From IMG/VR virus record IMGVR_UViG_3300035661_000092, positions 1 through 49,625 of that record: DNA of 49,625 bases. One strand, 5' to 3'. A model generated the notes under the pieces. It had not been told where the DNA came from. It ran no database searches and saw nothing but the letters and a program-made list of their open reading frames with translations. This document shows, piece after piece, positions 3,343 through 43,872 of this stretch (the stretch's first letter is position 1; each line of letters begins with the position of its first letter). Both the position numbers and the translations under genes were made by a program. This DNA is from a virus.

Positions 3343-4167
3343 ATGAAAAAAAATCTTATACATTTGATTGATTATTATCATTTGGCACCATCACTTAAAT
3401 GGTCTGATTTGGTCATATTGCATGCGTTATATCTTTGTGGGGAGGAATGTTTAAAGAGGGCATTTATTCATGAACATGTTATTATTATACATCGTCTTTT
3501 GCATCCTCAAGAGAATGTTAATTTTGATACAATGCGTAAAGCAATAGATGCTTTGATACATAAGGATTACATTATTCAAGATGGGGATTATATCTCATTT
3601 AATATGGATTTACTTACATTGAAAGAGCAAACAATTTGTAATCGAACCAATTATTTGTTAACAACATTTTTAGATGTAAAAGATTTAATGTTATTAGATT
3701 TTATTACATATTGGTATTTTCAAGCTAATAAATCTGAATATCATGCTATGAAATGGGATGATTTCGTAAGAATTTCACATGATAAATTTACAGAACAATT
3801 CCAAATGACATTTAAGCAGATAAATAATCGTTTGAAAAAATTATGTGAATTAAAATTTTTGAATATGAAAAAGATTGCCATTAACAAGGTTAAACCGGTT
3901 GCTTTATATAAGCCTGAATTACAATATCAGGCATGGGTTGATTTGAATAACGATATAGTCGCAGTTTCTTATAAGGATGAGATTACCCAGCATGTATTTT
4001 TGAATTGTGATTTCGAGTATCCTAAACACAGTATAAGCCCACAGGAACAGTTATCATATGAAGAAGGGTGTGGGTATATACAAGAAGATTTGTTGGGTAA
4101 GATGTGTATATGTTATTTATGGTCACATGGTCATATTAAGCGTAATAGTGAAAACGTTTTCATTTGA
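3343..4167 (+). CDS. probable winged-helix DNA-binding protein
   Basis: 274 aa. The first ~90 residues and the stretch around 120-190 each look like helix-helix-helix-wing modules ([33 protein letters not shown] near 145), as in phage replication initiators or transcription factors of the DnaD/RepA type. No nuclease or ATPase motif is seen. It is first in its unit and lies opposite the replication operon, so it could control early transcription or initiate replication; neither is proven. Its last codons are formed by a LacI/CcpA-like palindrome (4149-4162), which therefore encodes residues E-N-V-F. Confidence 0.6.
4149..4162. promoter_or_regulatory. LacI/CcpA-like palindromic operator, site 1
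   Basis: TGAAAACGTTTTCA, a perfect 14-bp dyad matching the cre consensus (TGWNANCGNTNWCA). It overlaps the end of the upstream gene and lies 16 bp before the dCMP deaminase start. This is one of several identical or near-identical copies in the window. Confidence 0.55.
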
Positions 4168-4178: not shown

Positions 4179-4664
4179 ATGAATCGACCAGAATGGGATG
4201 AGTATTTCATGGCAATTGCTTATTTGGTATCTACTCGTTCAACCTGTATGCGAAGAGCGGTTGGGGCGGTGTTGGTTAAAGACAATCGTATTCTATGTAC
4301 AGGTTACAATGGAGCACCTTCAGGGCTGCGTCATTGTATGGAGATAGGTTGTCTGCGTGATAAATTAAAAATACCATCAGGTGAGCGCCATGAATTATGC
4401 CGAGGTCTTCATGCCGAACAGAATACATTAGTTCAGGCTGCCAGGCATGGCATAGTCGTAGCTGATTCCATCCTTTACTGCACCACATTCCCTTGCGTAA
4501 TCTGCGCCAAAATGCTTATCAATGCAGGTGTTAAAGCTATCTTTTACAGTCAGGGATATGCAGATAATTTGACGCAGGATATGTTAAAGGAAGCTGGTGT
4601 TGCAATAACATTTAAAGATTGTGCCCAGAATGCAAATTATATTGTATCAGTATCTTGTGATTGA
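4179..4664 (+). CDS. deoxycytidylate (dCMP) deaminase
   Basis: 161 aa from ATG 4179, which follows GAAGGGAG; an upstream TTG reading has no site. Converts dCMP to dUMP, feeding dTTP synthesis during phage replication. The zinc/catalytic signature is complete: H78-A-E80 and P-C106-V-I-C109, with the ComEB-type N-terminus (W-D-E-Y-F-M) and the Y-N-G-A-P-S-G substrate loop near 43-49. Length is normal for ComEB-like dCMP deaminases (150-190 aa). It follows the winged-helix gene with 11 nt between them. A structured RNA gene with its own promoter lies immediately downstream. Confidence 0.92.
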
Positions 4665-4674
4665 TGGTTTTTGC

Positions 4675-4703
4675 TTGACTTATTTCAATAAGTAAGTTAT
4701 AAT
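4675..4703 (+). promoter_or_regulatory. near-consensus sigma-70 promoter of the small RNA
   Basis: -35 TTGACT (4675-4680), 17-bp spacer, perfect -10 TATAAT (4698-4703). The predicted start at 4709-4711 coincides with the first base of the 14-bp terminal stem of the RNA. No reading frame with a ribosome site follows on this strand. Confidence 0.75.
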
Positions 4704-4710
4704 AATAAAC

Positions 4711-4805
4711 ATAAGCAGCGTAAGTCTCCTCCTGATAGCCATTTTTACATGGCCACCCCCTTGAAAATCCCCTTTCTTGGTTCTCTAATAGCTTACGCTG
4801 CTTAT
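4711..4805 (+). ncRNA. candidate trans-acting anti-Shine-Dalgarno small RNA
   Basis: About 95 nt. The 5' end (4711-4724) and 3' end (4792-4805) form a perfect 14-bp stem, ATAAGCAGCGTAAG against its complement, followed by ATTTTAT. Inside is a small hairpin GCCAT-TTTTAC-ATGGC (4738-4753) and unpaired pyrimidine-rich arms: CTCCTCCTGAT (4726-4736), CCCCCTT (4756-4762) and AATCCCCTTTCTTGGT (4766-4781). The arms are complementary to extended phage ribosome sites: 14 nt to 12935-12948, 13 nt to 13292-13304, 13 nt to 8553-8565, 10 nt to 11645-11654 and 10 nt to 11200-11209. What is seen is the promoter, stem and complementarity; repression or timing of translation is inferred. An alternative is a bidirectional terminator between convergent genes, but the 67-nt loop and the aligned promoter argue against that. 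Confidence 0.6.
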
Positions 4806-4808
4806 ATT

Positions 4809-6173
4809 TTATGCCTGCCTAATTTGTTTCCCAAATTTATCCACTAATTCCTGTAATTCATCTTTTTTGATACTGCATAATGGTTTTATTTGTTGTGCTT
4901 GATTGATTATTATATCCTCGGTTAATGGAGTATTTTCATAAAACGTTTGCCTTAATGCTTGTTGGATACAATTTTCAATTTCAGCACCTGTAAAATCGGT
5001 CATATATTCATTGATTTTGTCCAAGTTAAAATGATGGTATTGTTCCGGTAAATGTATCTTTATAATTTGTAATCTATCTGATGGTGTTGGTGTATTTACA
5101 AACCATATCTCATCGAAGCGACCCTTCCGCAGTAGTTCAGGTGGTAATTGAGATATATTATTTGCTGTGCATGCAAAGAAGTTATTGTTATTTGCATCCT
5201 GTAAATATCCTAAAAACATTCCTAACAAACGATTTGTTACACCACTATCATTATTTGAGTTATGCCCTGCAAAAGCTTTCTCGATTTCATCACATAGAAT
5301 AACGGCTGGTGCAAGGTTGTCCATTGTTTGTAATGCCTGGTAAAAATACTGTTCAGATTCCCCAACCAAGCTATGTAATACGCTCTGAATATTAAACTGG
5401 TATAGTGGCAATTTTAACAACGTTGCTGCCATTTTTGCCACGAGGGTTTTGCCTGTTCCTGGGATACCTAATAAGAACATCCCTTTGACAGGTTTAAGTC
5501 CATATTTCATGGCAGCATCCAGATTTTGGTAAATCTTGGCTGTTTGGCATAACCATTGTTTAAGAGTATTCAAACCACCGACTTGTTCCATATCAATCGT
5601 GGCAGGAATATAAGTTAGTAATTGTTGATTATTAAAAATTTGATTTTTATAAGTATAAATTTTTTGTATATTCACGCTTTTGGTTTCAGGATTGATAGCG
5701 TGAGTTAAAGCGCCAATAATTTGAGAGGTGGTTAGATTTCGAGTGGCATCAATAAGTTTTGTTACATTTGTCGTATTGATAAACTGGCTTATGATGTCCT
5801 TGCGTTCTTGTTCAGTCAATGGTGGGAGTATAAGCTGTAATATGTATTGCTTATATTCCGTTGGGATGGGTTTTGTTCCCGCTATAATAACGGTTAAGCC
5901 TGTTTTTTGATACAAATTTTGAATGCGTTCTAAACTGACATTCACAATTGTATGATTCCAGCCTTTAATAAATACCACCTGTTGGGGTGGTGAGTATTGT
6001 CGTGGCTGTGTCCAGGCTTCGACAGTTGGCAATGCGGAAGCGGGGGTATATTTACAATTACGCAGGGTGGAAACTATGCTTTTGACATAAGTCTCCACCC
6101 TGTTCACCTCTTCTGTTTGGATATAAATAAGAGGTGTGCCTTTTACTATACATTCGTGAAGCTCATTCCACAT
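4809..6173 (-). CDS. Ycf46-like AAA+ ATPase
   Basis: 454 aa from ATG 6173, which overlaps the stop of the upstream gene (ATGTGGAATGA); an in-frame ATG at 6230 would overlap by 68 nt and has no ribosome site. The N-terminal half (P-L-I-Y-I-Q-T-E-E, later L-T-V-I-I-A-G-T-K-P-I-P) looks like the degenerate N-terminal domain of Ycf46-type proteins. The C-terminal half is a full AAA module: Walker A GIPGTGKT (236-243), Walker B ILCDEIE (292-298), sensor 1 A-C-T-A-N-N, and arginine finger R-K-G-R-F-D-E-I-W. Such ATPases remodel protein complexes; the substrate is unknown. The three or four small genes before it in the operon are candidate partners or adaptors. Confidence 0.8.
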   Translation of the reverse strand: MWNELHECIVKGTPLIYIQTEEVNRVETYVKSIVSTLRNCKYTPASALPTVEAWTQPRQYSPPQQVVFIKGWNHTIVNVSLERIQNLYQKTGLTVIIAGTKPIPTEYKQYILQLILPPLTEQERKDIISQFINTTNVTKLIDATRNLTTSQIIGALTHAINPETKSVNIQKIYTYKNQIFNNQQLLTYIPATIDMEQVGGLNTLKQWLCQTAKIYQNLDAAMKYGLKPVKGMFLLGIPGTGKTLVAKMAATLLKLPLYQFNIQSVLHSLVGESEQYFYQALQTMDNLAPAVILCDEIEKAFAGHNSNNDSGVTNRLLGMFLGYLQDANNNNFFACTANNISQLPPELLRKGRFDEIWFVNTPTPSDRLQIIKIHLPEQYHHFNLDKINEYMTDFTGAEIENCIQQALRQTFYENTPLTEDIIINQAQQIKPLCSIKKDELQELVDKFGKQIRQA

Positions 6174-6801
6174 CGAATTGCTCGACGGATTTTCTGATAG
6201 CTTGGGCTGTAGGGCTATCCTGCCCTGCATGGTGCATGATGAACTCTGAACAGATATAAGTCAATGCTACATTAGGGTTGCCTGTTACTGCCAAATCACG
6301 GGCAATTTGCAATGCCTCCTTGTAGATTTCATATTGTTCAGGGTTCAAGCTGAATTTGACATGTTCAGGGCTTTTATTTGCTTCTCGGTATTTTTCATGG
6401 ATTTTTGTTTGCACAGCTCTGAAAGGTAGCTCTTTAGCCTCCTCAATCATATCCAAGACTTCGGCCGCCTCTAAAGATACATTCAAAGCGAGTTTGGCTA
6501 TCTCATTGAATTTTGTCCATCCCATATCAATTAAAAGTTCAGGTTCCAGATTGTATTTTTCAATCACTTTCCCGATTTTAACTTTATATAGGAACATTTC
6601 ATAACTTATCGTGTTGGCAAATTCTGTTTTAACAAATTCTTTGAAGCTCTTGTAATTCAAAGATTGCCATTCTTTGCCTTTGTAGATTTCCCATGATGTA
6701 ATTGCTGTGTTAACCCAGCCATCACTTTCTTTGTGCATGGCTTGGAGGAATTGCTGCACTAATTTAGTAATTACCATTTGTTGTTGGTTGGCTTTGGCCA
6801 T
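6163..6801 (-). CDS. unknown helical protein in the AAA+ operon
   Basis: 212 aa with a strong ribosome site (AAGGAGG, 5 nt before the start region). Largely helical and charged. The N-terminal half has W-E-I-Y-K-G-K-E-W and S-Y-E-M-F-L-Y-K-V-K-I-G-K-V-I-E-K-Y, suggesting a helix-turn-helix-like fold; the C-terminal half (L-N-P-E-Q-Y-E-I-Y-K-E-A-L-Q-I-A onward) looks like a helical repeat. Its 3' end overlaps the AAA+ start, so the two are probably made together. It may be the DNA- or protein-targeting partner of the ATPase; no family is recognised with certainty. Confidence 0.65.
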   Translation of the reverse strand: MAKANQQQMVITKLVQQFLQAMHKESDGWVNTAITSWEIYKGKEWQSLNYKSFKEFVKTEFANTISYEMFLYKVKIGKVIEKYNLEPELLIDMGWTKFNEIAKLALNVSLEAAEVLDMIEEAKELPFRAVQTKIHEKYREANKSPEHVKFSLNPEQYEIYKEALQIARDLAVTGNPNVALTYICSEFIMHHAGQDSPTAQAIRKSVEQFDVE

Positions 6802-8533: not shown

Positions 8534-8571
8534 GGTTAGATATACAAAAAACACCAAGAAAGGGGGAAAGC

Positions 8572-8802
8572 ATGAAAAAGTCTAATCTTACAATGGCGTT
8601 TAGGGCGTATTGGTCTGATTTGGTTTGGTTGTATCAGACGGGTTCATCCTGTGAAGATTTTGTAAATCTCATGGATGAAGACCTCGAGTTACTATTCGAG
8701 GAAGCTGATAAACCGTATGAGCCGTGGCGGGAATTTGTGTCGTCATTTCAGCTCCCACCTAAAGAATTCTTTAATGTCACCAAAGATTATCTCACTTCAT
8801 AG
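8572..8802 (+). CDS. small acidic protein of unknown function
   Basis: 76 aa, preceded by AAGAAAGGGGG. Acidic and aromatic (W-S-D-L-V-W-L-Y; D-E-D-L-E-L-L-F-E-E-A-D). No family recognised. Its leader has a 13-nt match to the C-rich arm of the small RNA (8553-8565 with 4769-4781). It is the second gene of the TerS unit. Confidence 0.6.
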   Translation: MKKSNLTMAFRAYWSDLVWLYQTGSSCEDFVNLMDEDLELLFEEADKPYEPWREFVSSFQLPPKEFFNVTKDYLTS

Positions 8803-8810: not shown

Positions 8811-9041
8811 ATGCCAAAAACAATCTATTTAACAACCGATAGTGCAGATAATGGTATTAACATTACTTGGGTACCCTCGAGGCAAAGATTAAACATAAGC
8901 GGATGGTTTGATTCTTTTGTTGGTATCGAGGGTAAGTCTATGTTTTTAATCGATTTTTTTACAGAACTTGGTATTACTGAAAAAGATTGCATAAAGGCAT
9001 TTAAATCAAAAAATAAGATACAAAATATGAAAGGGGATTGA
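8811..9041 (+). CDS. small protein of unknown function
   Basis: 76 aa, ribosome site GAGGGA. The first half looks like a beta-sheet (I-Y-L-T-T-D; I-N-I-T-W-V-P-S-R-Q; L-N-I-S-G-W-F-D), the second half an amphipathic helix ending in Lys-rich residues. Eight bases separate it from the preceding gene. No function can be assigned. Confidence 0.6.
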   Translation: MPKTIYLTTDSADNGINITWVPSRQRLNISGWFDSFVGIEGKSMFLIDFFTELGITEKDCIKAFKSKNKIQNMKGD

Positions 9042-10324: not shown

Positions 10325-11194
10325 ATGAAGATTGGGCTTTATGACCATGAGAATAACGGTTATCCGAATTTAGCTTTAATGAAACTGTCTGCATGGCATA
10401 AAGCCCATGGTGATACAGTGGAATGGTTTAATCCGATTATGGGGGGTTATGATAGAATTTATACGTCAAAAATTTTTACATGGACACCATCAAATCTATA
10501 TTTGCCACCAGAAATAACAGTATATGGTGGCACAGGATTTGATATTACCAAAACATTAGATGATGAAGTTGAAAACATGGTGCCTGATTATAGCCTTTAT
10601 AATTGTGATAAATCTTATGGTTTTTTGACACGAGGTTGTATTAGGTCGTGTCCTTGGTGTTTTGTTCCAAGGAAAGAAGGCAAGATAAGAGCTCATCACG
10701 ATATAGAGGATTTTGCGAGGCATAAAGAAGTTGTTTTGATGGATAATAATGTATTGGCTCATCCTCATGGGATAGCCCAGATTGAGAAGATAGCCAAATT
10801 GGGATTAAAAGTAGATTTTAACCAAGGGCTTGATGCACGGTTGATTGATGATGGTATCGCACGTTTGCTTGGTAAGGTTAAATGGTCACCATATATACGT
10901 TTAGCTTGTGATTCTCTTTCAATGATGGAGTCAGTTCGGAAAGCTGTTGAATTATTACGATGGCATAATGTTACACCATCCAAGTATTTTTGCTATGTTC
11001 TTGTTAAGGATATTGATGATGCTTTGGAAAGGGTGCGGTTTTTGAAAGGCATATATGTTAATCCATTTTGCCAACCATATAGAGATATGGAAGGCAATGA
11101 GCCGACACAAGAGCAAAAACATTTTGCCCGATGGTGTAACCATAAAGCAATATATAATACTGTTCCATGGGAAGATTATAAAGCACAGAAATAA
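10325..11194 (+). CDS. radical SAM enzyme of unknown substrate
   Basis: 289 aa from ATG 10325; the GGAGGA ribosome site is about 15 nt upstream, a little far. It contains the [4Fe-4S]/SAM signature C105-I-R-S-C109-P-W-C112 in F-L-T-R-G-C. An N-terminal ~90-residue Rossmann-like part (Y-P-N-L-A-L-M-K-L-S-A-W-H-K) resembles a degenerate B12-binding domain. Downstream F-N-Q-G-L-D-A-R-L and the C-terminal F-A-R-W-C-N are features of a radical-SAM family found in phages and bacteria with no fixed function. It sits between the clamp and the Csx20-like genes; DNA, tRNA or nucleotide modification is possible but not shown. Confidence 0.8.
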   Translation: MKIGLYDHENNGYPNLALMKLSAWHKAHGDTVEWFNPIMGGYDRIYTSKIFTWTPSNLYLPPEITVYGGTGFDITKTLDDEVENMVPDYSLYNCDKSYGFLTRGCIRSCPWCFVPRKEGKIRAHHDIEDFARHKEVVLMDNNVLAHPHGIAQIEKIAKLGLKVDFNQGLDARLIDDGIARLLGKVKWSPYIRLACDSLSMMESVRKAVELLRWHNVTPSKYFCYVLVKDIDDALERVRFLKGIYVNPFCQPYRDMEGNEPTQEQKHFARWCNHKAIYNTVPWEDYKAQK

Positions 11195-11214
11195 ATTAAC
11201 AGGAGGAGAAAATT

Positions 11215-11448
11215 ATGGCTATATCAGAACAGGAAAAGCTTTTGTTGGTAGATTTTTTTCAAAAAAAATTTAATGTTCTTGATGAATTTTTTGAAAATTT
11301 ACGTGCGTGTTTGGGGCGTGTAAAGTCAACTGATGACCCCAACGACATTCTATCTGAAATCTACTTATTGGTATGGGATTGTAAAATTGACCTCTTTGAT
11401 GTGAATAATTGGTATAATCAAGAGTTAAAGAAGATAAAGGGGGGATGA
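11215..11448 (+). CDS. small protein, paralogue of the next gene
   Basis: 77 aa, ribosome site AGGAGGAGA. Acidic helical protein with F-Q-K-K-F-N-V-L-D-E-F-F near the start. The same pattern (K-K-F-x-x-x-D-x-F-F) recurs at the same place in the next protein, suggesting duplication. Its ribosome site pairs over 10 nt with the CTCCTCC arm of the small RNA. Unknown function; encoded directly before the Csx20-like pair. Confidence 0.6.
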   Translation: MAISEQEKLLLVDFFQKKFNVLDEFFENLRACLGRVKSTDDPNDILSEIYLLVWDCKIDLFDVNNWYNQELKKIKGG

Positions 11449-11450
11449 TT

Positions 11451-11657
11451 ATGGAGAAGTCATTTGATGAAACCTTATTAGACCTAAAGAAGAAATTTAC
11501 AATCGTAGATTGCTTTTTTATTCAGTTAGATGAATTGTTTTTGTTTTATAAATGGGGTGATGATACTCAACTCTATTCGTTAGATTTCTTGGAAGATTTT
11601 ATAGATGTAATAGACGCCTGTTGGATAAATGGCCCTTGTATTGAATCAGGAGGATAG
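11451..11657 (+). CDS. small acidic protein, paralogue of the previous gene
   Basis: 68 aa from ATG 11451; an ATG 6 nt upstream sits against the AAGGGGGG ribosome site without spacing. Contains L-K-K-K-F-T-I-V-D-C-F-F, matching the previous protein, then a strongly acidic helical C-terminus. It overlaps the region of the previous stop closely and ends 4 nt before the next start. Function unknown. Confidence 0.55.
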   Translation: MEKSFDETLLDLKKKFTIVDCFFIQLDELFLFYKWGDDTQLYSLDFLEDFIDVIDACWINGPCIESGG

Positions 11658-11661: not shown

Positions 11662-12069
11662 ATGGTAAGGTTGTTTGTATTAACACAAAACAAGATAACG
11701 GATGTGCAGATTAAGGATGTTCGAGAATATCTCAACGTGGATGATGAAATAATCTATGCACCAGATGAGATATTAAAGAGATGGGTTTCAATTCCACCAG
11801 AGATTTGTAGTTGGGATTTATTAGATTACATTAACACAATCTTTGATTGGTTAGAGAGTGTATCACCCAAGCCCTACGATTTATTACTTATAGATGGTGA
11901 TATTGTAGCAACGTGTTATATTGTTAATTGGATGTATAAACATAAAAAGACTACATGTATTACTCCAGTAATACGTTGGAGTACGATTGCAGAGATGCAA
12001 CCAGATGGGAGTATTATCAAAAAAGAGATGCCACAATACGTTAGGTTTAGGAAGTTTTTTGCATGCTAA
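11662..12069 (+). CDS. Csx20-like protein A (putative ring nuclease family)
   Basis: 135 aa from ATG 11662, ribosome site AGGAGGATAG. It has the same length and layout as the next protein. N-terminal strand L-F-V-L-T-Q-N-K-I-T, Y-A-P-D-E-I-L-K-R-W-V-S-I-P-P-E near 32-47, F-D-W-L-E-S-V near 61-67, the L-I-D-G-D-I-V-A-T strand-turn-helix near 76-84, and C-terminal Q-P-D-G-S-I then Y-V-R-F-R-K-F-F. This matches the Csx20 family, which is linked to type III CRISPR loci and predicted to cleave cyclic tetra-adenylate. It is more diverged than its neighbour: D-G-D-I-V-A-T-C replaces the usual Q-G-D-F-G-A-T-Y. Its leader pairs over 10 nt with the small RNA. A phage copy would plausibly act as an anti-CRISPR; this is inference. 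Confidence 0.55.
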   Translation: MVRLFVLTQNKITDVQIKDVREYLNVDDEIIYAPDEILKRWVSIPPEICSWDLLDYINTIFDWLESVSPKPYDLLLIDGDIVATCYIVNWMYKHKKTTCITPVIRWSTIAEMQPDGSIIKKEMPQYVRFRKFFAC

Positions 12070-12116: not shown

Positions 12117-12524
12117 ATGGCTAAAACAATGATTGTTCTGATGAACCACAAGCTCACGGCGGAGCAACAGGATGATGCTCATGAAACTCTTGGTGTCACT
12201 GATTTTCTTTATCCACCGAAAGAGTTTTTAGACATCTGGGCTAATATTCCAGCAGATGCAAATATGTGGAATATTCAGGCCCATTTGGTGCCGGTCTATG
12301 AATGGCTTGAGTCGGTTATTCAGCCCCATAGTATCATCTTGGTTCAGGGTGAAATGGTGGCTACTTACCAGTTTGTTAATGCTGTTAGGCAGACGTTTGC
12401 CATGCAGGACGTGCGCTGTGTAGCGGCGACAAGTTGTCGTGCATCGGTAGAGGAAGAGCTACCGGATGGCACTATCCAGAAAAAGTCTATCTTTAGACAT
12501 GTAAGGTTTAGAGCTTATTATTAA
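12117..12524 (+). CDS. Csx20-like protein B (putative ring nuclease family)
   Basis: 135 aa, ribosome site CGGAGGAA. Closest to the family pattern as I know it: V-L-M-N-H-K-L-T-A-E-Q-Q-D-D-A then L-G-V near the start, P-P-K-E-F-L-D-I-W-A-N-I-P near 33-45, Y-E-W-L-E-S-V near 62-68, L-V-Q-G-E-M-V-A-T-Y near 76-85, L-P-D-G-T-I near 114-119, and the hallmark end F-R-H-V-R-F-R-A-Y. Csx20 proteins accompany type III CRISPR systems and are predicted or reported ring nucleases acting on cyclic oligoadenylate. Here there is no CRISPR locus, so a viral counter-defence role is the natural reading. It follows copy A after 47 nt and precedes a tRNA-Leu. Confidence 0.65.
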   Translation: MAKTMIVLMNHKLTAEQQDDAHETLGVTDFLYPPKEFLDIWANIPADANMWNIQAHLVPVYEWLESVIQPHSIILVQGEMVATYQFVNAVRQTFAMQDVRCVAATSCRASVEEELPDGTIQKKSIFRHVRFRAYY

Positions 12525-12589: not shown

Positions 12590-12673
12590 GCCCAAATGGT
12601 GGAATTGGCAGACACAAGAGACTTAAAATCTCTCGGCGGCAACGCCTTGACGGTTCGAGTCCGTCTTTGGGCA
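12590..12673 (+). tRNA. tRNA-Leu (anticodon UAA)
   Basis: 84 nt, class II. Acceptor GCCCAAA (12590-12596) pairs with TTTGGGC (12666-12672), discriminator A. D-arm G-G-C-A-G-A-C; anticodon stem AGAGA/TCTCT around loop CTTAAAA with anticodon TAA; long variable arm CGGCGGCAACGCC; T-arm GACGG-TTCGAGT-CCGTC. CCA is not encoded. It reads UUA, by inspection the dominant Leu codon in the virion genes. It lies at the end of the TerS-Csx20 unit. Confidence 0.95.
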
Positions 12674-12916: not shown

Positions 12917-12954
12917 GGAATTAACAAAAATAAACAAGAAAGGGGATTAAGAAC

Positions 12955-13293
12955 ATGAAACACAAGTTAGCCACGTTATCAAAATCTGATTTTATCGAGG
13001 TGATGAGTAAGTCTTCACACTGTTCGCTTTCTTACAACGGGTTGGAGATTTTATACAATTATCTCACAGCTATTCAAAAGGATTTGGGTCAAGCGATAGA
13101 GTTTCACCCTGTGGTTTTGAGTTGTGATTTTATCGAGCGCACAGTGTATGATATCATTGAGTTAAATGATATTACCCTTGATGTGGATTCTACGGATGAA
13201 GAAACGCTCGAGATAGCATTGAATCAACTGGCAAAATTCACTATTATTTTGGGTGTGACTGATAAAGGCACGATAGTTTATAAGGATTATTAA
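12955..13293 (+). CDS. small accessory protein, alpha family (DUF7222-like)
   Basis: 112 aa; ribosome site AAGAAAGGGGATT, complementary over 14 nt to the small RNA. Pattern: S-D-F-I-E-V-M, S-L-S-Y-N-G-L-E-I-L-Y-N-Y-L, I-E-F-H-P-V-V-L-S-C-D-F-I-E-R-T, and C-terminal I-L-G-V-T-D-K-G-T-I-V-Y. This recalls a family of small proteins common in Firmicutes mobile elements (F-S-Y-E-G-L-E-A-L-F-x-Y-L, I-E-F-D-x-I-x-x-x-C-x-F; I believe DUF7222). Their role is not established to my knowledge. The closest relative in the window is the gene at 17127. Confidence 0.65.
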   Translation: MKHKLATLSKSDFIEVMSKSSHCSLSYNGLEILYNYLTAIQKDLGQAIEFHPVVLSCDFIERTVYDIIELNDITLDVDSTDEETLEIALNQLAKFTIILGVTDKGTIVYKDY

Positions 13294-13310
13294 GAAAGGG
13301 GATTAAGAAC

Positions 13311-13592
13311 ATGACATACAAGTTAACCACAAAGTTAGAAGAGCGGGCTAAAATAGACACAATTTTACGGGCTTCCAATCTACATTATGAGTTTGTGGGT
13401 GATTGGGTACATGACTGTTTTTATTATAGTGTTTATTTGTTCGACATATACGTCCATTGTGAGGACGTAGAAAAGTGGTGTAAGTATTTAAGAAAACATT
13501 ACTTAAAACATATAACGACGGATGTGGATGTGTTATCGTCTGGTGGGTGTTTGTTGGCTGTTGAAGGCTTACTTACATTTAAGCCGAAATAA
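13311..13592 (+). CDS. small accessory protein, beta family
   Basis: 93 aa; ribosome site AAGAAAGGGGATT, a 13-nt match to the small RNA. Aromatic and Tyr-rich: L-H-Y-E-F-V-G-D-W, Y-Y-S-V-Y-L, then W-C-K-Y-L-R-K-H-Y. The proteins at 13614 and 14549 share the layout L-x-Y-x-x-x-x-x-W, Y-Y-x-x-x-Y, W-x-x-x-x-K. Probably a small alpha/beta fold. Function unknown; located in the first accessory cassette. Confidence 0.6.
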   Translation: MTYKLTTKLEERAKIDTILRASNLHYEFVGDWVHDCFYYSVYLFDIYVHCEDVEKWCKYLRKHYLKHITTDVDVLSSGGCLLAVEGLLTFKPK

Positions 13593-13613
13593 AAATGAAA
13601 GGGGATTACGAAC

Positions 13614-13889
13614 ATGAAAATGACAAACTTCGAAAAGGTCGAGTGTTATCTCAATGGATTAAATCTGCCATATAGTCTTATCAAGGCTTGGAAACGTGAT
13701 GAGACTTATTCTTTTTTGTTTCTTATCCATGCAAAACATTATATCTACTGGCATTATTATTTGTATGAGCGTTTACGTGATGGATATGAAGCATTTTTGC
13801 AAGTATTGCCAGATAAGTTAGGCGGGAATTATATCGTACTCAAAGTCACGGGTTTCAAGTTTTACCGTGACTGGGAGCCGTTAAATTAA
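13614..13889 (+). CDS. small accessory protein, beta family
   Basis: 91 aa; ribosome site GAAAGGGGATT. L-N-L-P-Y-S-L-I-K-A-W at residues ~17-27 and a Tyr/His/Trp-rich middle (H-Y-I-Y-W-H-Y-Y-L) align with the layout of the genes at 13311 and 14549. The C-terminus V-T-G-F-K-F-Y resembles the L-T-L-K-D-F-F end of the 14549 protein. Function unknown. Confidence 0.6.
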   Translation: MKMTNFEKVECYLNGLNLPYSLIKAWKRDETYSFLFLIHAKHYIYWHYYLYERLRDGYEAFLQVLPDKLGGNYIVLKVTGFKFYRDWEPLN

Positions 13890-13916
13890 AATCTAAATAA
13901 GAAAGGATAAAAAATT

Positions 13917-14264
13917 ATGTTAAAAACAATTAGCTGTGATGATTTTATTCAGGAAATGCGGTGGTATGTTGACCCCGAGGTTTTATCAGATGAGGCCCTC
14001 GAGGTTATCTTTGAGCATGTCAATGAATTTTTGGGGCCTGGCATTGAATTGACTGAATCTGTTAAGGATTACATTGTGGACACCTACCGTGAGACCTCGA
14101 TTTGGGATTTGATGGAGCGCCTTGACTGGTTACTCGAGCGCCTGGACAATATAGAATGTATGTCATCCGCTATATTGGTAGTTTTGGCCACCGATGAGTT
14201 AATTCTTTCCGACTGGCGGTCATTTGTAGGTGAGACTTCCAAAGGCCTGGTCTATCTGAAATAG
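13917..14264 (+). CDS. small acidic accessory protein, alpha family (diverged)
   Basis: 115 aa, strongly acidic; ribosome site AAGAAAGGAT. C-D-D-F-I-Q-E-M near the start, S-D-E-A-L-E-V-I-F-E-H-V and the C-terminal G-E-T-S-K-G-L-V-Y match the alpha family (12955, 17127, 17484). The middle differs (W-D-L-M-E-R-L-D-W-L-L-E-R-L-D). High negative charge is typical of DNA-mimic anti-restriction proteins, but nothing here proves that. Last gene of cassette 1. Confidence 0.6.
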   Translation: MLKTISCDDFIQEMRWYVDPEVLSDEALEVIFEHVNEFLGPGIELTESVKDYIVDTYRETSIWDLMERLDWLLERLDNIECMSSAILVVLATDELILSDWRSFVGETSKGLVYLK

Positions 14265-14275
14265 TCAAATCAAAT

Positions 14276-14325
14276 ACATTATCATATCTCATTTTTGGGG
14301 GTGCTATAATCTTTATGGCGCCCCC
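14276..14325 (+). other. cassette-end element 1: ACATTATCAT plus GC-rich hairpin
   Basis: ACATTATCAT (14276-14285) is followed by a hairpin GGGGGTGC (14297-14304) with GCGCCCCC (14318-14325), which includes one G-U pair. No T-tract follows, so it may stabilise the mRNA end or be a weak terminator. The same word plus a hairpin recurs at 15219-15269 and, with a true terminator, at 18243-18349. Confidence 0.45.
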
Positions 14326-14357
14326 TAAACAATTCTTATTTCACAAAAAATAACTTT

Positions 14358-14382
14358 GCACACATTGTATGACACATTGTAG
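14358..14382. repeat. tandem activator-like repeats, module 2
   Basis: GCACACATTGTA at 14358-14369 and GACACATTGTAG at 14371-14382, 88 bp upstream of the P2 -35. They share the core ACACATTGTA with modules 1 and 3, but with a 13-bp period instead of 18 or 12. Confidence 0.6.
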
Positions 14383-14430
14383 GCATCCTATCTTATTATA
14401 TCTTTTTGTGTGTTGGTGGGTGGTATTTTT

Positions 14431-14498
14431 GGGCTTTTTAACCTCGAGGTTTAAGCACACATGGCGGGGCTTGTAAAGAGAATGAAATATGTTATCCT
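14431..14498 (+). promoter_or_regulatory. accessory-cassette promoter P2 with conserved upstream block
   Basis: The block GGGCTTTTTAACCTCGAGGT (14431-14450) is repeated almost exactly in module 3. -35 TTGTAA (14471-14476), 16-bp spacer, extended -10 TGTTATCCT with hexamer 14493-14498. The predicted leader has ATTGCCACAAGGCGAAAT, identical in P3. It drives the genes at 14549 and 14836. Confidence 0.65.
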
Positions 14499-14548
14499 GG
14501 AATTGCCACAAGGCGAAATACAATATCATAAGAAAGGGGATAACAAAA

Positions 14549-14830
14549 ATGCTGGTAAATAGTTCAACAAACTATCGGCTATCAAGGTTATACTCAATTT
14601 TAGAGTTATCTGACCTTGTTTACGAGTTTGCATGGGATGGGCGTTCTGATAACGATTATTATCTTGATTATTATATCTGGTATAACGATATAGACGCCTG
14701 GTTTAGCCATTTCAAAAAATTTTATATTACTGACAATTTAAATGTCTATGTTGATATTGAAGTATTGGATGGTCATGATTGTACCATGACCTTAACCTTA
14801 AAAGACTTTTTCAAAAATGAAAGGGGTTAA
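14549..14830 (+). CDS. small accessory protein, beta family
   Basis: 93 aa from ATG 14549 after AAGAAAGGGGATAA; the upstream frame extends into the promoter and has no other site. S-D-L-V-Y-E-F-A-W-D and D-Y-Y-L-D-Y-Y-I-W-Y-N-D-I-D-A-W-F-S-H-F-K-K-F-Y match the 13311 protein (L-H-Y-E-F; V-E-K-W-C-K-Y). Very acidic and aromatic. First gene of cassette 2. The leader is complementary over 12 nt to the small RNA. Function unknown. Confidence 0.6.
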   Translation: MLVNSSTNYRLSRLYSILELSDLVYEFAWDGRSDNDYYLDYYIWYNDIDAWFSHFKKFYITDNLNVYVDIEVLDGHDCTMTLTLKDFFKNERG

Positions 14831-14835
14831 AAAAA

Positions 14836-15114
14836 ATGAAAGATATTAAAGAAATTTTTCCACCAAAAAAATTTTGGCGTATTTTATCTAATGGTTATTG
14901 GTTTTTGAGAAATAGCGCTATGGCTTTTCTCGTTCAGAACATTGAAAGGCATAAGAAATGCAAAAAACATTATGATATTACTTTGATTACTAATCCTAAT
15001 GATAAAATCGTTTGGGTGCGCTTTTTGGAAACATACAAGCTGGATTTTACATGGCTTGATAGTACTGAGCCTGATATACAGTTTTTAAAAATTACTAAAG
15101 TTAAACTGTTATAA
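14836..15114 (+). CDS. small basic accessory protein
   Basis: 92 aa; the ribosome site AAGGGGTT lies inside the end of the previous gene. Basic N-terminal half with P-P-K-K-F-W-R-I-L-S-N-G-Y-W-F-L and H-K-K-C-K-K-H-Y, then beta-like C-terminal segments. It might be a distant member of the beta family, but the match is weak. It is the only clearly basic protein of this cassette. Function unknown. Confidence 0.55.
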   Translation: MKDIKEIFPPKKFWRILSNGYWFLRNSAMAFLVQNIERHKKCKKHYDITLITNPNDKIVWVRFLETYKLDFTWLDSTEPDIQFLKITKVKLL

Positions 15115-15148
15115 TATGGCATTTTTGTTCCTGGTAAATTCATGTCAT

Positions 15149-15199
15149 GAGATAAAACAGGCTATCATTGCCGAGTCTTTACATAGTCTGTTTTATCTC
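15149..15199. other. 17-bp stem-loop after cassette 2
   Basis: GAGATAAAACAGGCTAT (15149-15165) pairs with 15183-15199 through 17 bp including one G-U pair; the loop is 17 nt. No T-tract on either strand, so not a classical terminator. It lies in a 377-bp stretch without a supported gene (15115-15491). Confidence 0.5.
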
Positions 15200-15218
15200 A
15201 AAAAATAACTCATTTAAA

Positions 15219-15269
15219 ACATTATCATGCCTGGGGTTGTTATAGGCATATCCTTTATAACAGTCCCCA
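15219..15269 (+). other. cassette-end element 2: ACATTATCAT plus hairpin
   Basis: ACATTATCAT at 15219-15228, then a hairpin TGGGG-TTGTTATA (15232-15244) with TATAACA and CCCCA (15256-15269) and a 2-nt bulge. It repeats the organisation at 14276-14325. Confidence 0.45.
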
Positions 15270-15303
15270 TAAAAATTTTATTGTTTTCAAAAAACTTAAT
15301 CGG

Positions 15304-15328
15304 GCGCACATTGTAGCACACATTGTAT
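15304..15328. repeat. tandem activator-like repeats, module 3
   Basis: GCGCACATTGTAG (15304-15316, one mismatch) and GCACACATTGTAT (15316-15328), 90 bp upstream of the P3 -35. The segment between them and P3 (about 15331-15400) is visibly more GC-rich than its surroundings. Confidence 0.6.
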
Positions 15329-15367
15329 ATATCCTATCCTCCCGCCTGCGCTGTTCCCGGCGCTTTC

Positions 15368-15446
15368 GGGCTTTTTGACCTCGAGGATAAGGGCCCGGCA
15401 TAAACGAATATCACAGGGTTGCAGTTGCAATGAGATATGATATTCT
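15368..15446 (+). promoter_or_regulatory. accessory-cassette promoter P3 with conserved upstream block
   Basis: GGGCTTTTTGACCTCGAGG (15368-15386) matches the block of P2. -35 TTGCAG (15419-15424), 16-bp spacer, extended -10 TGATATTCT with hexamer 15441-15446, followed by ATTGCCACAAGGCGAAAT as in P2. It drives the genes from 15492. Confidence 0.65.
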
Positions 15447-15491
15447 GATATTGCCACAAGGCGAAATTAAATAAGAAAGGGAGATAAGACA

Positions 15492-15836
15492 ATGATTATC
15501 ACAGAGTTTGAGGTCGAAGGGCTTGGCGCCCGGAACGGGAATTTTTGTATAGGGTCAACGTTAATTTACAAGGGTCTGCAAAAAGACCCTTGGTTTCACC
15601 ATTTTGTTGTAAGTGGGGCGCCTAAATTTTTATTTTATTTTACTGAAGATTGTATAATTTCAACAAGCGATGGCATCATACGTCGTTATGGTGAAATTGA
15701 CCTCTTAAGGCTTCCGTTTCAAAAATCCTGTTTATTTTTTGAGCAGGACCGGGACAACCCGGAAGTATTTTACAGAGGGTATATGTCATGCCATGGTGTC
15801 AAATGGCATACATATAGTTATGAGTGGGATATTTAA
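15492..15836 (+). CDS. small accessory protein, mostly beta
   Basis: 114 aa; ribosome site AAGAAAGGGAGAT. Alternating hydrophobic stretches (F-L-F-Y-F-T-E-D-C-I-I-S-T, G-I-I-R-R-Y-G-E-I-D-L-L-R-L-P) suggest a beta-sandwich or barrel. No family recognised. First gene of the third cassette, which is less AT-rich than the surrounding genes and may have a different source. Confidence 0.55.
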   Translation: MIITEFEVEGLGARNGNFCIGSTLIYKGLQKDPWFHHFVVSGAPKFLFYFTEDCIISTSDGIIRRYGEIDLLRLPFQKSCLFFEQDRDNPEVFYRGYMSCHGVKWHTYSYEWDI

Positions 15837-15863
15837 CTTTAAACAAGATAGGGGGCTAAAAAA

Positions 15864-16232
15864 ATGGATGAATTCAACTGGACTTATTACAGGAATGTGG
15901 ACGGGAAAGTGGTCAAAGTATTTTTCCCATTTGAAAATGTGGTAAGTAATGTCGGGGGCATTTTTAGAGGCAGCCGTGTAATTCCCACCATTGCATTTGA
16001 CGAGGACTGCAGTAAAGCGGTCCTTATATGTAATGGCAGTGATTTACTGTTTCTCACCACAAAATGGTGGGAAATCGTAGAGGGAGATGTCACCATTTAT
16101 CACGTTGAGGGAATGGCAGTACTGCAGTCCTCTCAACCCTTTATACTCCGGCCCATAAACTGGCCTGAAAAGGAAGGATGGAGTTTTAGAATAGCCTCCC
16201 GTGAGGGAGATACAGGCTGGCGTAAAATCTAA
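15864..16232 (+). CDS. small accessory protein, mostly beta
   Basis: 122 aa; ribosome site GGGGG 8-12 nt upstream. Beta-rich with many Trp/Phe (W-T-Y-Y-R-N-V-D-G-K-V-V-K-V-F-F-P-F; K-W-W-E-I-V). Comparable in style to the proteins at 15492 and 16317 and may be a third paralogue group, but identity is too low to be sure. A strong terminator starts at its stop codon. Confidence 0.55.
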   Translation: MDEFNWTYYRNVDGKVVKVFFPFENVVSNVGGIFRGSRVIPTIAFDEDCSKAVLICNGSDLLFLTTKWWEIVEGDVTIYHVEGMAVLQSSQPFILRPINWPEKEGWSFRIASREGDTGWRKI

Positions 16233-16276
16233 ACCCTAAAGGGTATGATTAAAATTCATACCCTTTAGGGTTTTTT
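16232..16276 (+). terminator. strong intrinsic terminator
   Basis: A 17-bp perfect stem (16232-16248 with 16256-16272, AACCCTAAAGGGTATGA) is followed by a run of six T. The next gene starts 41 bp later without a visible promoter, so partial read-through is likely. Confidence 0.9.
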
Positions 16277-16316
16277 GTTGTAAAAAATTTCAAAAATCCA
16301 AGAAAGGGATAAAATT

Positions 16317-16694
16317 ATGATTAAATATAGCAATTTAATAATTTACGGGCTGGCTAAAAAAGACTTGCCGGCCAAGGGCTATGTTCTGCATTTCGGCCAA
16401 AAAGGCGCTAAACATCTTTATCAATTCTATTCCGAGGATAGGCCATTCACTTTTTTAACAAGAGGAATTGAGCATCTTACACAATTCCTCCCGGACCCTC
16501 CCGAAAATCAATACGTCTGCATTAGAAAGGGTTTTATTCAACCCGTTTCTCAATGCGAAATCATTTCATATGCACATTACTTTTATGGCAAACAACAACA
16601 AAATGTTACCGTGTTTGCTATGAAAGCCGATGGCGTTTTTGCGCAAGATGGTAAATTTTTTACGATTAAAAATAACAGAATAATAAAAAAATGA
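16317..16694 (+). CDS. small basic accessory protein
   Basis: 125 aa; ribosome site AAGAAAGGGAT, an 11-nt match to the small RNA including upstream bases. Basic, beta-rich, ending in K-N-N-R-I-I-K-K. No recognised motif. First gene after an internal terminator, so its expression probably depends on read-through or on an unseen promoter. Confidence 0.55.
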   Translation: MIKYSNLIIYGLAKKDLPAKGYVLHFGQKGAKHLYQFYSEDRPFTFLTRGIEHLTQFLPDPPENQYVCIRKGFIQPVSQCEIISYAHYFYGKQQQNVTVFAMKADGVFAQDGKFFTIKNNRIIKK

Positions 16695-16707
16695 AAGGAA
16701 TAAAAAA

Positions 16708-17130
16708 ATGACTAATAAAGAATTGGATGGAGCGCTAAAATTAAATGACTTATTATTTGAAAGTGGATTGCCTTATTTAATAAGTTCAGTGACATGTCAA
16801 GTAAATAAAAAATTTTGTTCCTGTTCTTTTTTCGGAAAGCTCACTGATTTTTCAGAGTGGAGAGAATTTTTAAAATATAACAGTAATTTTACGCACTGGA
16901 ATTTTTCACCTATGGATATCAATTTCCCATGGATTGTGTCGTTTTATGTAGAATTTAATTTACAGGATAAAAAAATGATTATAGAAACGGGCCCGGAAGG
17001 ACAATGGATTATTTCTACAATAGTGGACGGTCATTTAATGTCTAAACAGTTTTTCGGGTATTCAAAAAAAGAGGCTGTAAAATTATTCAATCAATATATT
17101 AAAAATGAAAGGGAGGAATTAAAGAAATGA
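16708..17130 (+). CDS. small accessory protein
   Basis: 140 aa; ribosome site GAAAGGAAT. N-terminal helix (L-D-G-A-L-K-L-N-D-L-L-F-E-S-G-L-P-Y) is similar in position to the beta family (L-L-x-x-S-x-L-x-Y), followed by W-R-E-F-L-K-Y and a longer C-terminal part ending in a Lys/Glu helix. It may be an extended beta-family member. Its stop overlaps the next start (ATGA). Confidence 0.55.
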   Translation: MTNKELDGALKLNDLLFESGLPYLISSVTCQVNKKFCSCSFFGKLTDFSEWREFLKYNSNFTHWNFSPMDINFPWIVSFYVEFNLQDKKMIIETGPEGQWIISTIVDGHLMSKQFFGYSKKEAVKLFNQYIKNEREELKK

Positions 17131-17456
17131 AATACACATTATCAAAATTTGATTTTATAGACGGAATGCAGAGTGAACCTAACAATCCATTTTCCTATAA
17201 TGGATTGGAAATCATTTGGGATTTTTTGAATGAGTATGAACAAGACGCCTCCGAAGAAATTGAATTTGACCCTGTATCCTTTAGGTGCGATTTTTGTGAG
17301 CAAACAGTTAAAGAAATTATTTATGATTATAAACTTGTTGTTGACAATAAGTTAACAGACGTTGAACAACAAGATTTTGTATTAGATTATTTACATCAAA
17401 AAACAACTATCCTGGGCGTTACACAAGAGGGTACGATTGTATTTCAAAACTTCTAA
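17127..17456 (+). CDS. small acidic accessory protein, alpha family (DUF7222-like)
   Basis: 109 aa; ribosome site AAAGGGAGGA. The clearest relative of the 12955 protein: S-K-F-D-F-I-D-G-M, F-S-Y-N-G-L-E-I-I-W-D-F-L, I-E-F-D-P-V-S-F-R-C-D-F-C-E-Q-T-V, and I-L-G-V-T-Q-E-G-T-I-V-F. These fit the DUF7222-like pattern better than any other protein in the window. Two copies 4 kb apart plus diverged relatives indicate repeated duplication. Function unknown. Confidence 0.65.
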   Translation: MKYTLSKFDFIDGMQSEPNNPFSYNGLEIIWDFLNEYEQDASEEIEFDPVSFRCDFCEQTVKEIIYDYKLVVDNKLTDVEQQDFVLDYLHQKTTILGVTQEGTIVFQNF

Positions 17457-17483
17457 TAAATAAAAAAGAAAGGATATTGACCT

Positions 17484-17726
17484 ATGTTAACTCATTTAAC
17501 ATTTCACAAGTTTGCGCATGACTTGCGCTCAGTTTTTTCGCCTAATGCGGCGTTAATTTTATGGGATTATTTCGACCAACAGGAAATGATTCAAAGGGAA
17601 CCGATATTTTATGACCCTTGGGCCATAATAAATACTTATCGTGAAATCCCATTGAATGCAGTCACGAATGAACAAGTTATAGGCATAACAGCTAAAGGAA
17701 CTGCAGTTGTCATGGAAAGAAATTAG
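17484..17726 (+). CDS. short alpha-family accessory protein
   Basis: 80 aa; ribosome site AAGAAAGGAT. H-K-F-A-H-D-L near the start, A-A-L-I-L-W-D-Y-F in the middle and V-I-G-I-T-A-K-G-T-A-V-V at the end align with the alpha family, but the central C-D-F-x-E-x-T segment is replaced by a shorter I-F-Y-D-P-W-A-I-I-N-T-Y. It is about 30 residues shorter than its relatives, suggesting an internal deletion. Confidence 0.55.
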   Translation: MLTHLTFHKFAHDLRSVFSPNAALILWDYFDQQEMIQREPIFYDPWAIINTYREIPLNAVTNEQVIGITAKGTAVVMERN

Positions 17727-17766
17727 ATATTGTTTTTCAAAACTTTTAATGAAAGGAAATAAAAAA

Positions 17767-18231
17767 ATGAAAACATTTTTTAATTCAAAAGGGCTTATCG
17801 TGTTAGGGTTTAATGACAATTCGGGCCGGACAATTGTACCGCACGGAAAGCTTGAAGTATGTCAATATTCTTATGGAAAAAAGTTTTATAAACTTACACC
17901 ACACACAGACAAGGGATATTGGATTGACATTATTCATGATTACGTCGAACCGATTTGCGGCTGTAAAGTGGTGGAGGAGAGGTCGCCATCTTGCAGTGGT
18001 GATAGCCCCATATCTTTAATCGCCCTGGATGACCTTGCGCTCATTCGGATATATAGAAACGCCGAGGGCTCATATTGGATTTTTAAAGATGGTAATTATT
18101 ACAGCATCGCAAAAGAGTGGCTATTATATAACGCCTTAATTCCTGGAGTGGCGGAACGTGATATCGTAGAAGGGCCGAATCAAATATCAGGCACAATTCA
18201 AGATATTCTCATGAATCTTATTAAGGATTAA
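17767..18231 (+). CDS. accessory protein of unknown function
   Basis: 154 aa from ATG 17767 after GAAAGGAAAT; the upstream frame overlaps the previous gene without a site. Beta-rich N-terminal half with four Cys around C-G-C-K and S-C-S-G, W-I-F-K-D-G-N-Y-Y in the second half, and a helical end. The Cys cluster could bind a metal or be fortuitous. Last sizeable gene of the accessory locus. Confidence 0.55.
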   Translation: MKTFFNSKGLIVLGFNDNSGRTIVPHGKLEVCQYSYGKKFYKLTPHTDKGYWIDIIHDYVEPICGCKVVEERSPSCSGDSPISLIALDDLALIRIYRNAEGSYWIFKDGNYYSIAKEWLLYNALIPGVAERDIVEGPNQISGTIQDILMNLIKD

Positions 18232-24391: not shown

Positions 24392-24961
24392 ATGGGAGTT
24401 ATTAGCTTTGCAAAGGTAGTATCAAATCTTCCAAATCCTATAGTGGCTGATACCGTTTATTTGGTGCGGAATGGGTCTGGGTTTGATTTATATGTTACAG
24501 ATACTACGGGTTCCATTGCTTACACCACTAATACTGTATCGAAAGCTGGTGATACCATGACAGGCCCGCTGGTGCTTTCAGATAACGCAACAACAGCATT
24601 GCAAGCGGTGCCAAAACAACAGCTTGATGCAGCGATAGCAGGTGTTAATATCTTTTCGATAAATGCCCAGACAGGAACTACCTATACCCTGGCGCTTACA
24701 GATACCTCGAAGCTGATAACTCTTAACAATGCTTCCGCCATTACGGTTACAGTGCCAGCAAATTCCTCCGTTGCATTTTCTATCGGGACACAAATCAACT
24801 GTATCCAAACAGGCGCTGGGAAGGTTACATTTAGCCCAGCATCAGGTGTAACTATCAACTCCAAAGCAGGGAATAAGAGCATCTCGGCACAATGGGTTGG
24901 GGTTTCACTTATCAAAACTGATACTGATGTGTGGGTATTATTAGGAGACTTGACGAGTTAG
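24392..24961 (+). CDS. fibre/appendage protein with beta-rich tip
   Basis: 189 aa. N-terminal ~35 residues resemble the previous protein. It then has the phage fibre repeat G-D-T-M-T-G-P-L-V-L (about 53-62) and K-Q-Q-L-D-A-A-I, followed by a Thr/Ser/Asn-rich beta domain (T-V-P-A-N-S-S-V-A-F-S-I-G-T; G-V-T-I-N-S) as in the distal domains of many tail fibres. The start ATG directly follows the previous stop. Confidence 0.7.
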   Translation: MGVISFAKVVSNLPNPIVADTVYLVRNGSGFDLYVTDTTGSIAYTTNTVSKAGDTMTGPLVLSDNATTALQAVPKQQLDAAIAGVNIFSINAQTGTTYTLALTDTSKLITLNNASAITVTVPANSSVAFSIGTQINCIQTGAGKVTFSPASGVTINSKAGNKSISAQWVGVSLIKTDTDVWVLLGDLTS

Positions 24962-42476: not shown

Positions 42477-43112
42477 ATGTATTGGTCAGATAGTGGTAAA
42501 TTTGAACCAAACCCAACATTAATGGCATTATTTCAACGGGCACATGAAGACAAAATGTCAGAATTAAGTGCCATTAGAGCGGCGCAAGAAGCGCAAGCAC
42601 AAGCTGGTTTACTAAATGCACAAAGTGCTGCTGCTTTAAGACCAAGCCAGTCAGTTGAAAATCTGGCTCGTGCTGACGCCTACCGAGCCCAAGCACAATA
42701 TGCTATACCAGCACAAGGTAGTGAGTCGTATGCTCGTGCAAATGTATGGCAAGCACAAGCAAATGAAGCAAACGCTAAAAATAATGCAGCTTTACAGCCA
42801 TATTATAAACAAATTAGTGATATTGCCGACCTGTGGAATAAGACACATGGCCAAAACCCTCCCAATGGAATTGGTCAACAAGTTACATTGGCAAATCCTC
42901 AACAGCCGACTGGGTCATTGTTCCCCTCATTTGATTTGTTCGATAACTATAAACTTCCATCTGCTGCAAATCTTCAGCAAAATCTATTTAATGAAGATAA
43001 CACATCTACTGTTAATAATGATAAACAGGCATTACCTTCAAATATAGGAATACCAGGAATTCAGAGAATAAACCAAAATAATGGTGTTCCTTTATATACT
43101 AATAATACCTAA
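42477..43112 (+). CDS. internal virion protein-like, Ala/Gln-rich
   Basis: 211 aa; ribosome site TGGAGG. Helical Ala/Gln-rich N-terminal half (A-A-Q-E-A-Q-A-Q-A-G-L-L-N-A-Q-S-A-A), then a disordered Asn/Pro/Gln-rich part. Similar low-complexity proteins in podoviruses are ejected with DNA. The frame continues after its TAA for 13 more sense codons (Q-I-A-L-P-E-Y-D-E-A-T-G-G) to a second TAA, which looks protein-like. Confidence 0.6.
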   Translation: MYWSDSGKFEPNPTLMALFQRAHEDKMSELSAIRAAQEAQAQAGLLNAQSAAALRPSQSVENLARADAYRAQAQYAIPAQGSESYARANVWQAQANEANAKNNAALQPYYKQISDIADLWNKTHGQNPPNGIGQQVTLANPQQPTGSLFPSFDLFDNYKLPSAANLQQNLFNEDNTSTVNNDKQALPSNIGIPGIQRINQNNGVPLYTNNT

Positions 43113-43156
43113 CAAATAGCTTTACCAGAATATGATGAAGCTACAGGAGGTTAAAA

Positions 43157-43810: not shown

Positions 43811-43850
43811 ACTGACTCTGAAGTAATATAAAATGCTTCCGAAGGAACAT

Positions 43851-43872
43851 AAAATGAAAACGTTTTCATTTT
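43851..43872. promoter_or_regulatory. LacI/CcpA-like palindrome before the polyvalent gene, site 6
   Basis: 22-bp perfect dyad with core TGAAAACGTTTTCA (43855-43868). A ribosome site GAAGGAAC upstream and the ATG at 43854 would open a ten-codon leader (M-K-T-F-S-F-F-E-V-L) whose TAA overlaps the ATG of the next gene (TAATG). Confidence 0.55.

Follow-up and report, generated by a model that had tools for sequence, protein, structure and literature searches.

RNAs that block ribosome-binding sites by antisense pairing are known from bacteria and phages. The LhrC sRNAs of Listeria, with five homologues, act on the target lapB through three redundant CU-rich sites, situated in loop A, in a single-stranded stretch and in the terminator loop, that bind a G-rich region 5′ of the start codon and hinder translation (PMC4132741). 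The csRNAs of streptococci, which are controlled by CiaR and mostly consist of two stem-loops, expose unpaired anti-Shine-Dalgarno (and anti-AUG) stretches that are predicted to block translation initiation (PMC3091779). Among mobile elements, the c4 RNA of phages P1 and P7 blocks the ribosome site of a phage mRNA, ant, through loop complementarity (PMC12197685), and SprD, a pathogenicity-island RNA of Staphylococcus aureus, covers the Shine-Dalgarno sequence and start codon of its target (PMC2880579). Examples of phage antisense RNAs described in one review are directed at single phage targets or at host RNAs (PMC12197685).

The phage element described here resembles LhrC in carrying several CU-rich sites on one putative RNA, the csRNAs in its anti-Shine-Dalgarno stretches, predicted to be unpaired, c4 in being phage-encoded with a complementary loop, and SprD in its prospective cover of Shine-Dalgarno sequences. 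Unlike LhrC, it is present in one copy, is closed by an end-to-end stem and shares long complementary stretches with several leaders of the phage itself; it is closed by a single stem where the csRNAs mostly have two stem-loops; it matches several leaders and no Rfam family, whereas c4 acts on ant mRNA; and SprD targets the bacterial sbi mRNA (PMC2880579), not the mRNAs of its own element. Because LhrC, the csRNAs and c4 work alike, the view in the preliminary description that no RNA of this design had been described is too strong. A literature search conducted largely outside subscription journals returned no description of a phage RNA directed against a class of leaders common to genes of the same phage. 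The mechanism proposed below thus belongs to a known kind, although its setting is new.

We regard the element as real and constrained, and as a credible small RNA from its sequence. Its best explanation, which we hold with modest confidence, is a trans-acting antisense RNA that would block ribosome sites in a group of phage genes and so would probably lower the translation of several accessory genes that the phage itself carries. The basis for this assessment comprises the sequence, its predicted fold, conservation in one relative, complementarity above controls and a preference for accessory genes, and from these we infer transcription, stability, binding, repression and timing.

Genomic Context of the Element

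The window, that is, the whole stretch of DNA analyzed, is an IMG/VR virus record of 49,625 bases. By DNA comparison, its positions 1–42983 match G002, a record of 63,183 bases, at 99.96% and its positions 42857–49625 at 99.45%, the two segments mapping to the two extremes of G002 and sharing 127 bases that match both times. G002 therefore appears to represent a whole phage genome, ~63 kb long and repeated at its ends, and a terminase and an SU10-like portal predicted from the sequence mark the virus as a tailed phage. The element occupies the gap between two convergent genes, listed here together with a tRNA gene located elsewhere:

dCMP deaminase gene, plus strand, ends at 4664: the 5′ neighbor of the element
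AAA ATPase gene, minus strand, ends at 4809 with its stop codon at 4809–4811: the convergent neighbor, its stop 3 bases from the stem
tRNA-Leu (TAA), plus strand, 12590–12673: phage-encoded, elsewhere in the window

In five related loci (L066–L070, of which L069 is G003), a tRNA-Leu gene rather than the element directly follows the deaminase gene, and this difference in tRNA position indicates that the region has been rearranged.

Promoter Sequence and Predicted Fold

A near-perfect promoter ahead of a 95-nt element with a perfect 14-bp stem had been reported, and both sequences are borne out. The parts are listed below with their state in a diverged relative (L006):

4675–4703, plus strand: promoter TTGACT-17-TATAAT (TTGACT 4675–4680, TATAAT 4698–4703), 11/12 consensus positions
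4711–4724, plus strand: closing stem, 5′ arm; no changes in L006
4725–4736, plus strand: arm A1 (UCUCCUCCUGAU), complementary to leaders of the CAGGAGGA type; no changes in L006
4738–4753, plus strand: inner 5-bp hairpin GCCAU/AUGGC of the predicted fold
4754–4762, plus strand: C-rich stretch A2, without a long leader match; holds the one-base indel of L006
4766–4782, plus strand: arm A3 (AAUCCCCUUUCUUGGUU), complementary to leaders of the AAGAAAGGGGATT type; no changes in L006 (4766–4781)
4792–4805, plus strand: closing stem, 3′ arm, followed by AUAUUUUAU; no changes in L006

The TATAAT hexamer lies 7 nt from the first stem base. The exact form TTGACT-17-TATAAT has two copies in the window (0.02 expected), at 4675–4703 (plus) and 7954–7926 (minus); the element promoter is thus identical in form to the leftward member of a divergent pair near 7.95 kb (7954, minus; 7969, plus) from which two gene blocks start, and these three are the 11/12 sites of the first 19 kb. 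Sites of this score number 9 in the whole window, against a mean of 3.7 and a maximum of 8 in 60 first-order random runs, and 9 in the 63-kb genome, some of them within genes, so the score by itself is weak and the argument depends on where the site lies relative to the stem, on its exact form and on its conservation. Such sites have a chance density of 0.325 per 2400 bases (both strands, local composition), which by post hoc arithmetic gives a chance of ~3e-4 for a site no more than 5 positions from the required place. L006 retains both hexamers intact, separated by a 16-nt spacer, and its stem begins after a further 8 nt. On the 3′ side of the element no terminator was recognized.

The element itself (4711–4805) is closed from end to end around a loop of 67 nt. 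Its predicted plus-strand fold has an energy of −31.3 kcal/mol (z −6.5), equaled by 0/200 shuffles. In the predicted ensemble A1 is unpaired at 81%, and A3 (4767–4782) at just 63% because the weak inner hairpin overlaps part of it. Rfam matches at gathering score in the window were confined to the tRNA, and a search of 4600–4900 at E values up to 10 gave a single chance match to another family (E 2.1).

Two plus-strand reading frames across the element were rejected as genes. One, of 32 aa from an ATG, is broken by the L006 indel; the other, of 28 aa from a TTG, persists in L006 with 3 residue differences from 3 base changes and is preceded by pyrimidine-rich sequence without a Shine-Dalgarno sequence. 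On the minus strand, 4711–4805 contains a Shine-Dalgarno-like run followed by an AUG-UAA start-stop, as well as a hydrophobic 20-aa ORF.

Conservation and Distribution

Relatives were sought in viral contigs with the AAA protein, the deaminase and the proteins encoded at 6163–6801 and 3343–4167, each separately. Two sequence variants of the element were found, that of the window, also present in L002/G001 and L003/G002, and that of L005/L006 (G004). They differ by 1 mismatch and 1 one-base indel, both of which fall outside the stems, the arms A1 and A3 and the hairpin. This amounts to 1 mismatch in 94 aligned sites, against 80 in 442 fourfold sites (18%) of five neighboring genes (P 1.5e-7), and the 49 bases 5′ of the element (4662–4710) differ from G004 by 11 mismatches and 18 gap columns. 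A check for covariation and homologues had been proposed, and its outcome is divided: stem and arms are kept in one diverged relative, and covariation is absent because the stems of the two variants are identical.

Pattern searches for the stem returned 3 stretches in viral contigs, every one the element, and 1 in genome contigs, a G+C-rich palindromic Chitinophaga repeat with an unrelated loop. A three-arm pattern found just the same 3 stretches, and among 64 stretches with a two-arm pattern a closing stem of at least 9 bp was present only in the 3 already known. DNA searches of 22 + 7 related records recovered the complete element only in G001, G002 and G004; in G003, a fragmentary record, homology beside the AAA gene extends only through the 3′ arm, and the remaining matches were of 14–19 nt. 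A covariance model (R1) run over 37 sources retrieved the copies already known, on the forward as well as the reverse strand, the next best match having E 0.1; perfect inverted repeats of at least 12 bp in the fetched relatives included no analogue recognizable by eye; and a phage collection search gave 6 records at coverage of 24% or less and E 0.2–0.6. On these searches, the element is narrowly distributed, or was recently gained or lost.

Complementarity to Phage Leaders

The leader complementarities named in the preliminary description were recovered where it had placed them, at lengths of 10–14 nt, and further runs were found:

12935–12948, plus strand, 14 nt: predicted target, leader of 12955–13293
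13292–13304, plus strand, 13 nt: predicted target, leader of 13311–13592
8553–8565, plus strand, 13 nt: predicted target, leader of 8572–8802
14530–14541, plus strand, 12 nt: predicted target, leader of 14549–14830
13597–13607, plus strand, 11 nt: predicted target, leader of 13614–13889
16298–16308, plus strand, 11 nt: predicted target, leader of 16317–16694
9029–9039, 11 nt: complementary run before a 38-aa ORF at 9045
11200–11209, plus strand, 10 nt: predicted A1 target, leader of 11215–11448
11645–11654, plus strand, 10 nt: predicted A1 target, leader of the weakly Csx20-like gene 11662–12069

With both strands counted, complementary runs that reach 11 nt number 12 outside the element: 7 are in Shine-Dalgarno leaders, with that at 9029–9039 among them, 1 overlaps the start codon of the gene at 27850, and another 4 are elsewhere. 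Long leader matches belong to A1 and A3, none to A2, and two arms match two classes of ribosome site, as had been claimed, A1 the CAGGAGGA-type and A3 the AAGAAAGGGGATT-type leaders.

For the controls, genes were called by a simple script with starts chosen by Shine-Dalgarno strength, and leaders were kept at an energy of −6 or better, leaving 59 in the window and 69 in the G002 genome once weaker starts had been dropped. Loop matches of at least 11 nt are found in 6/59 window leaders, a count reached by 0/2000 mononucleotide and 0/2000 dinucleotide shuffles, and matches of at least 9 nt in 10/59 (0/2000 and 3/2000, respectively); the 14-nt maximum was reached by 1/2000 and 3/2000. The reverse strand of the loop has no match of at least 9 nt among the 59 window leaders. 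Complementarity is hence above chance in the shuffled-control comparison that had been suggested. Among the 69 genome leaders, matches of at least 9 nt fall in 9/21 accessory leaders (8.5–17.8 kb) and 0/23 structural leaders (18.6–43.2 kb; Fisher 4e-4), or in 2/48 of all nonaccessory leaders, such P values being optimistic since the accessory leaders are partly paralogous and the matches hence not independent; 12/21 accessory leaders match at fewer than 9 nt.

Duplex energies, which permit G-U pairs and bulges, follow the same order, with means of −16.2 kcal/mol for the 21 accessory leaders (0/500 shuffles as good), −14.9 for structural leaders (10/500) and −13.8 for the remaining leaders (8/500), and the preference for accessory over structural leaders was reached by 9/500 shuffles. 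As structural and remaining leaders also beat most shuffles, the loop has, more weakly, an affinity for ribosome sites at large. Nested co-folding yields a gain of 0.2–6.0 kcal/mol for eight accessory leaders and 0–0.5 for four structural leaders, small values that reflect the inability of the model to treat loop pairing beneath a closed stem.

The inclusion of Csx20-like genes in the target set holds in part. A 10-nt match lies in the leader of 11662–12069 (plus), a gene whose similarity to NCBIfam NF040559 (E 4e-17) is below the curated cut-off; the adjacent 12117–12524 (plus), which scores above the cut-off (E 7.8e-30), has a leader match of only 6 nt. We take these neighboring genes to be possible phage ring nucleases directed against type III CRISPR. 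The stretch 12955–17767 (plus) is a run of small accessory genes, some with similar N-termini and most with GAAAGG leaders; its first gene matches phrog_9974.

The reach of the match beyond the Shine-Dalgarno core was assessed on leaders aligned on GAAAGG, with the flanks of the loop compared with 5000 random flanks, also with GAAAGGGG fixed. In the phage's own leaders (n = 20) the flanks add 57 bases, reached by 1/5000 random flanks and by 20/5000 with GAAAGGGG fixed; in leaders of four sister records (n = 23; G003, G005, G007 and G008) they add 84 bases (0/5000 and 1/5000). In four distant records (27 leaders) the extension is without excess (1839 and 758 of 5000), and 10/255 of their leaders reach 9 nt and 0/255 reach 11. 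The complementarity that had been claimed past the core is therefore present in the own and four sister records, not in the four distant ones; G014 and G022 are not independent, since they have long identical repeats in common. Leaders with at least 10 nt number 7/21 in G005 (with matches of 14, 14, 13, 13 and 11 nt), 3/15 in G007, 2/33 in G003 and 1/9 in G008, and leaders with at least 9 nt number 0/16 in G006, which aligns to 17.0–27.4 kb, chiefly structural genes, and 0/11 in G009, both of which were left out of the flank test. One leader of G003 has a 13-nt match, yet the element is absent beside the AAA gene of that fragmentary record.

Proposed Mechanism and Alternative Explanations

We propose that an RNA of ~95 nt would be made from the phage's own host-type promoter at 4675–4703, whose likeness to the promoter of the leftward block suggests synthesis by host RNA polymerase. 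The 14-bp stem would close the RNA and display the CU-rich arms in the loop, where A3 could pair with AAGAAAGGGGATT-type and A1 with CAGGAGGA-type accessory leaders (~8.5–17.8 kb). Since pairing with the arms would mask the Shine-Dalgarno sequence together with the flank 5′ of it, the 30S subunit would be excluded, and translation of accessory genes would be lowered or timed while the leaders of structural genes would mostly be spared. End-to-end closure may confer resistance to exonucleases, and the RNA could remain present and silence the accessory genes at a later stage. A further and more doubtful proposition, which we put forward tentatively, is that the accessory genes share an extended site as a kind of leader dialect (AAGAAAGGGGATT and close forms) by which the phage RNA turns the set down and spares the structural genes. 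If the proposal is true, the RNA would act in trans on many mRNAs of the phage that encodes it, and one RNA tuned to a shared extended site would offer simple post-transcriptional timing of a gene block; the leader and arm pairs make it directly testable.

Fold energy does not select the plus strand and may favor the minus strand, which folds even better (−40.9 kcal/mol, z −7.4) and has an inner hairpin of 9 pairs rather than 5, by virtue of G-U pairs. The working RNA could hence be the minus strand, as a structured 3′ terminus on the transcript of the AAA-ATPase operon: a stabilizer or end-of-transcript element between convergent operons whose exposed GA-rich, ribosome-site-like loops might decoy ribosomes, an RNA-binding protein or a plus-strand RNA, and the closeness of the AAA stop codon to the stem fits this role. 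We nevertheless consider it unlikely: the conserved promoter runs the opposite way and starts at the stem, the minus-strand site beside the element scores only 9/12 and is altered in L006, no terminator-like site was recognized beside the element on either strand, and the match of the plus-strand loop to extended accessory leaders would go unexplained. The minus strand also enters a type I toxin-antitoxin arrangement, in which the plus RNA would be the antitoxin of an mRNA for the 20-aa hydrophobic peptide MAIRRRLTLLMFIIITYLLK. That ORF is present, with its start overlapped by the plus RNA, but the L006 peptide diverges after residue 10 and continues beyond 30 residues, and a good minus-strand promoter was not found, which leaves this arrangement highly improbable.

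The general affinity noted above would suit an RNA with three C-rich arms that mimic the 3′ tail of 16S rRNA and contend with ribosomes, in host shut-off, for strong Shine-Dalgarno sequences of host and phage mRNAs, and a 16S-type core is indeed present in A1 and A3. Nonetheless, the loop contains 6 of the 5-mers of the consensus 16S tail, as many as in 378/3000 shuffles, accessory leaders are preferred among the phage leaders scored, and the match extends beyond the core in leaders of this phage and of its sister records, not in those of distant phages; the suggestion of a 16S anti-Shine-Dalgarno mimic thus finds no enrichment behind it, despite the weaker affinity for leaders at large, and seems to us improbable. 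It is rather less probable still that the element has no function as RNA and is a palindromic DNA element or remnant with an accidental likeness to inverted ribosome sites. Its narrow distribution in two variants and the G003 homology that stops at the 3′ arm are what such a remnant might leave, but both the loop and the stem are strongly constrained and the leader matches exceed those of shuffles.

Other Features of the Window

Several further features of the window were recorded. The product of 10325–11194 (plus) is a radical SAM domain protein of phages, matching phrog_9298 at E 1.1e-87, and 24931–25998 (plus) contains internal repeat units of ~141 bases, seen as offset self-similar matches, in a probable structural protein. 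A palindrome also recurs:

4149, 8009, 12745, 18657 (1 mismatch), 35562 and 43855, plus strand: palindrome TGAAAACGTTTTCA

These 6 matches compare with 0 expected in the window, and the majority lie immediately 5′ of a gene or gene block. The remainder of G002 holds 1 further copy, and look-alike palindromes occur in L056, L061 and L090. The palindrome, which we take to resemble cre, is a candidate operator or phage promoter element.
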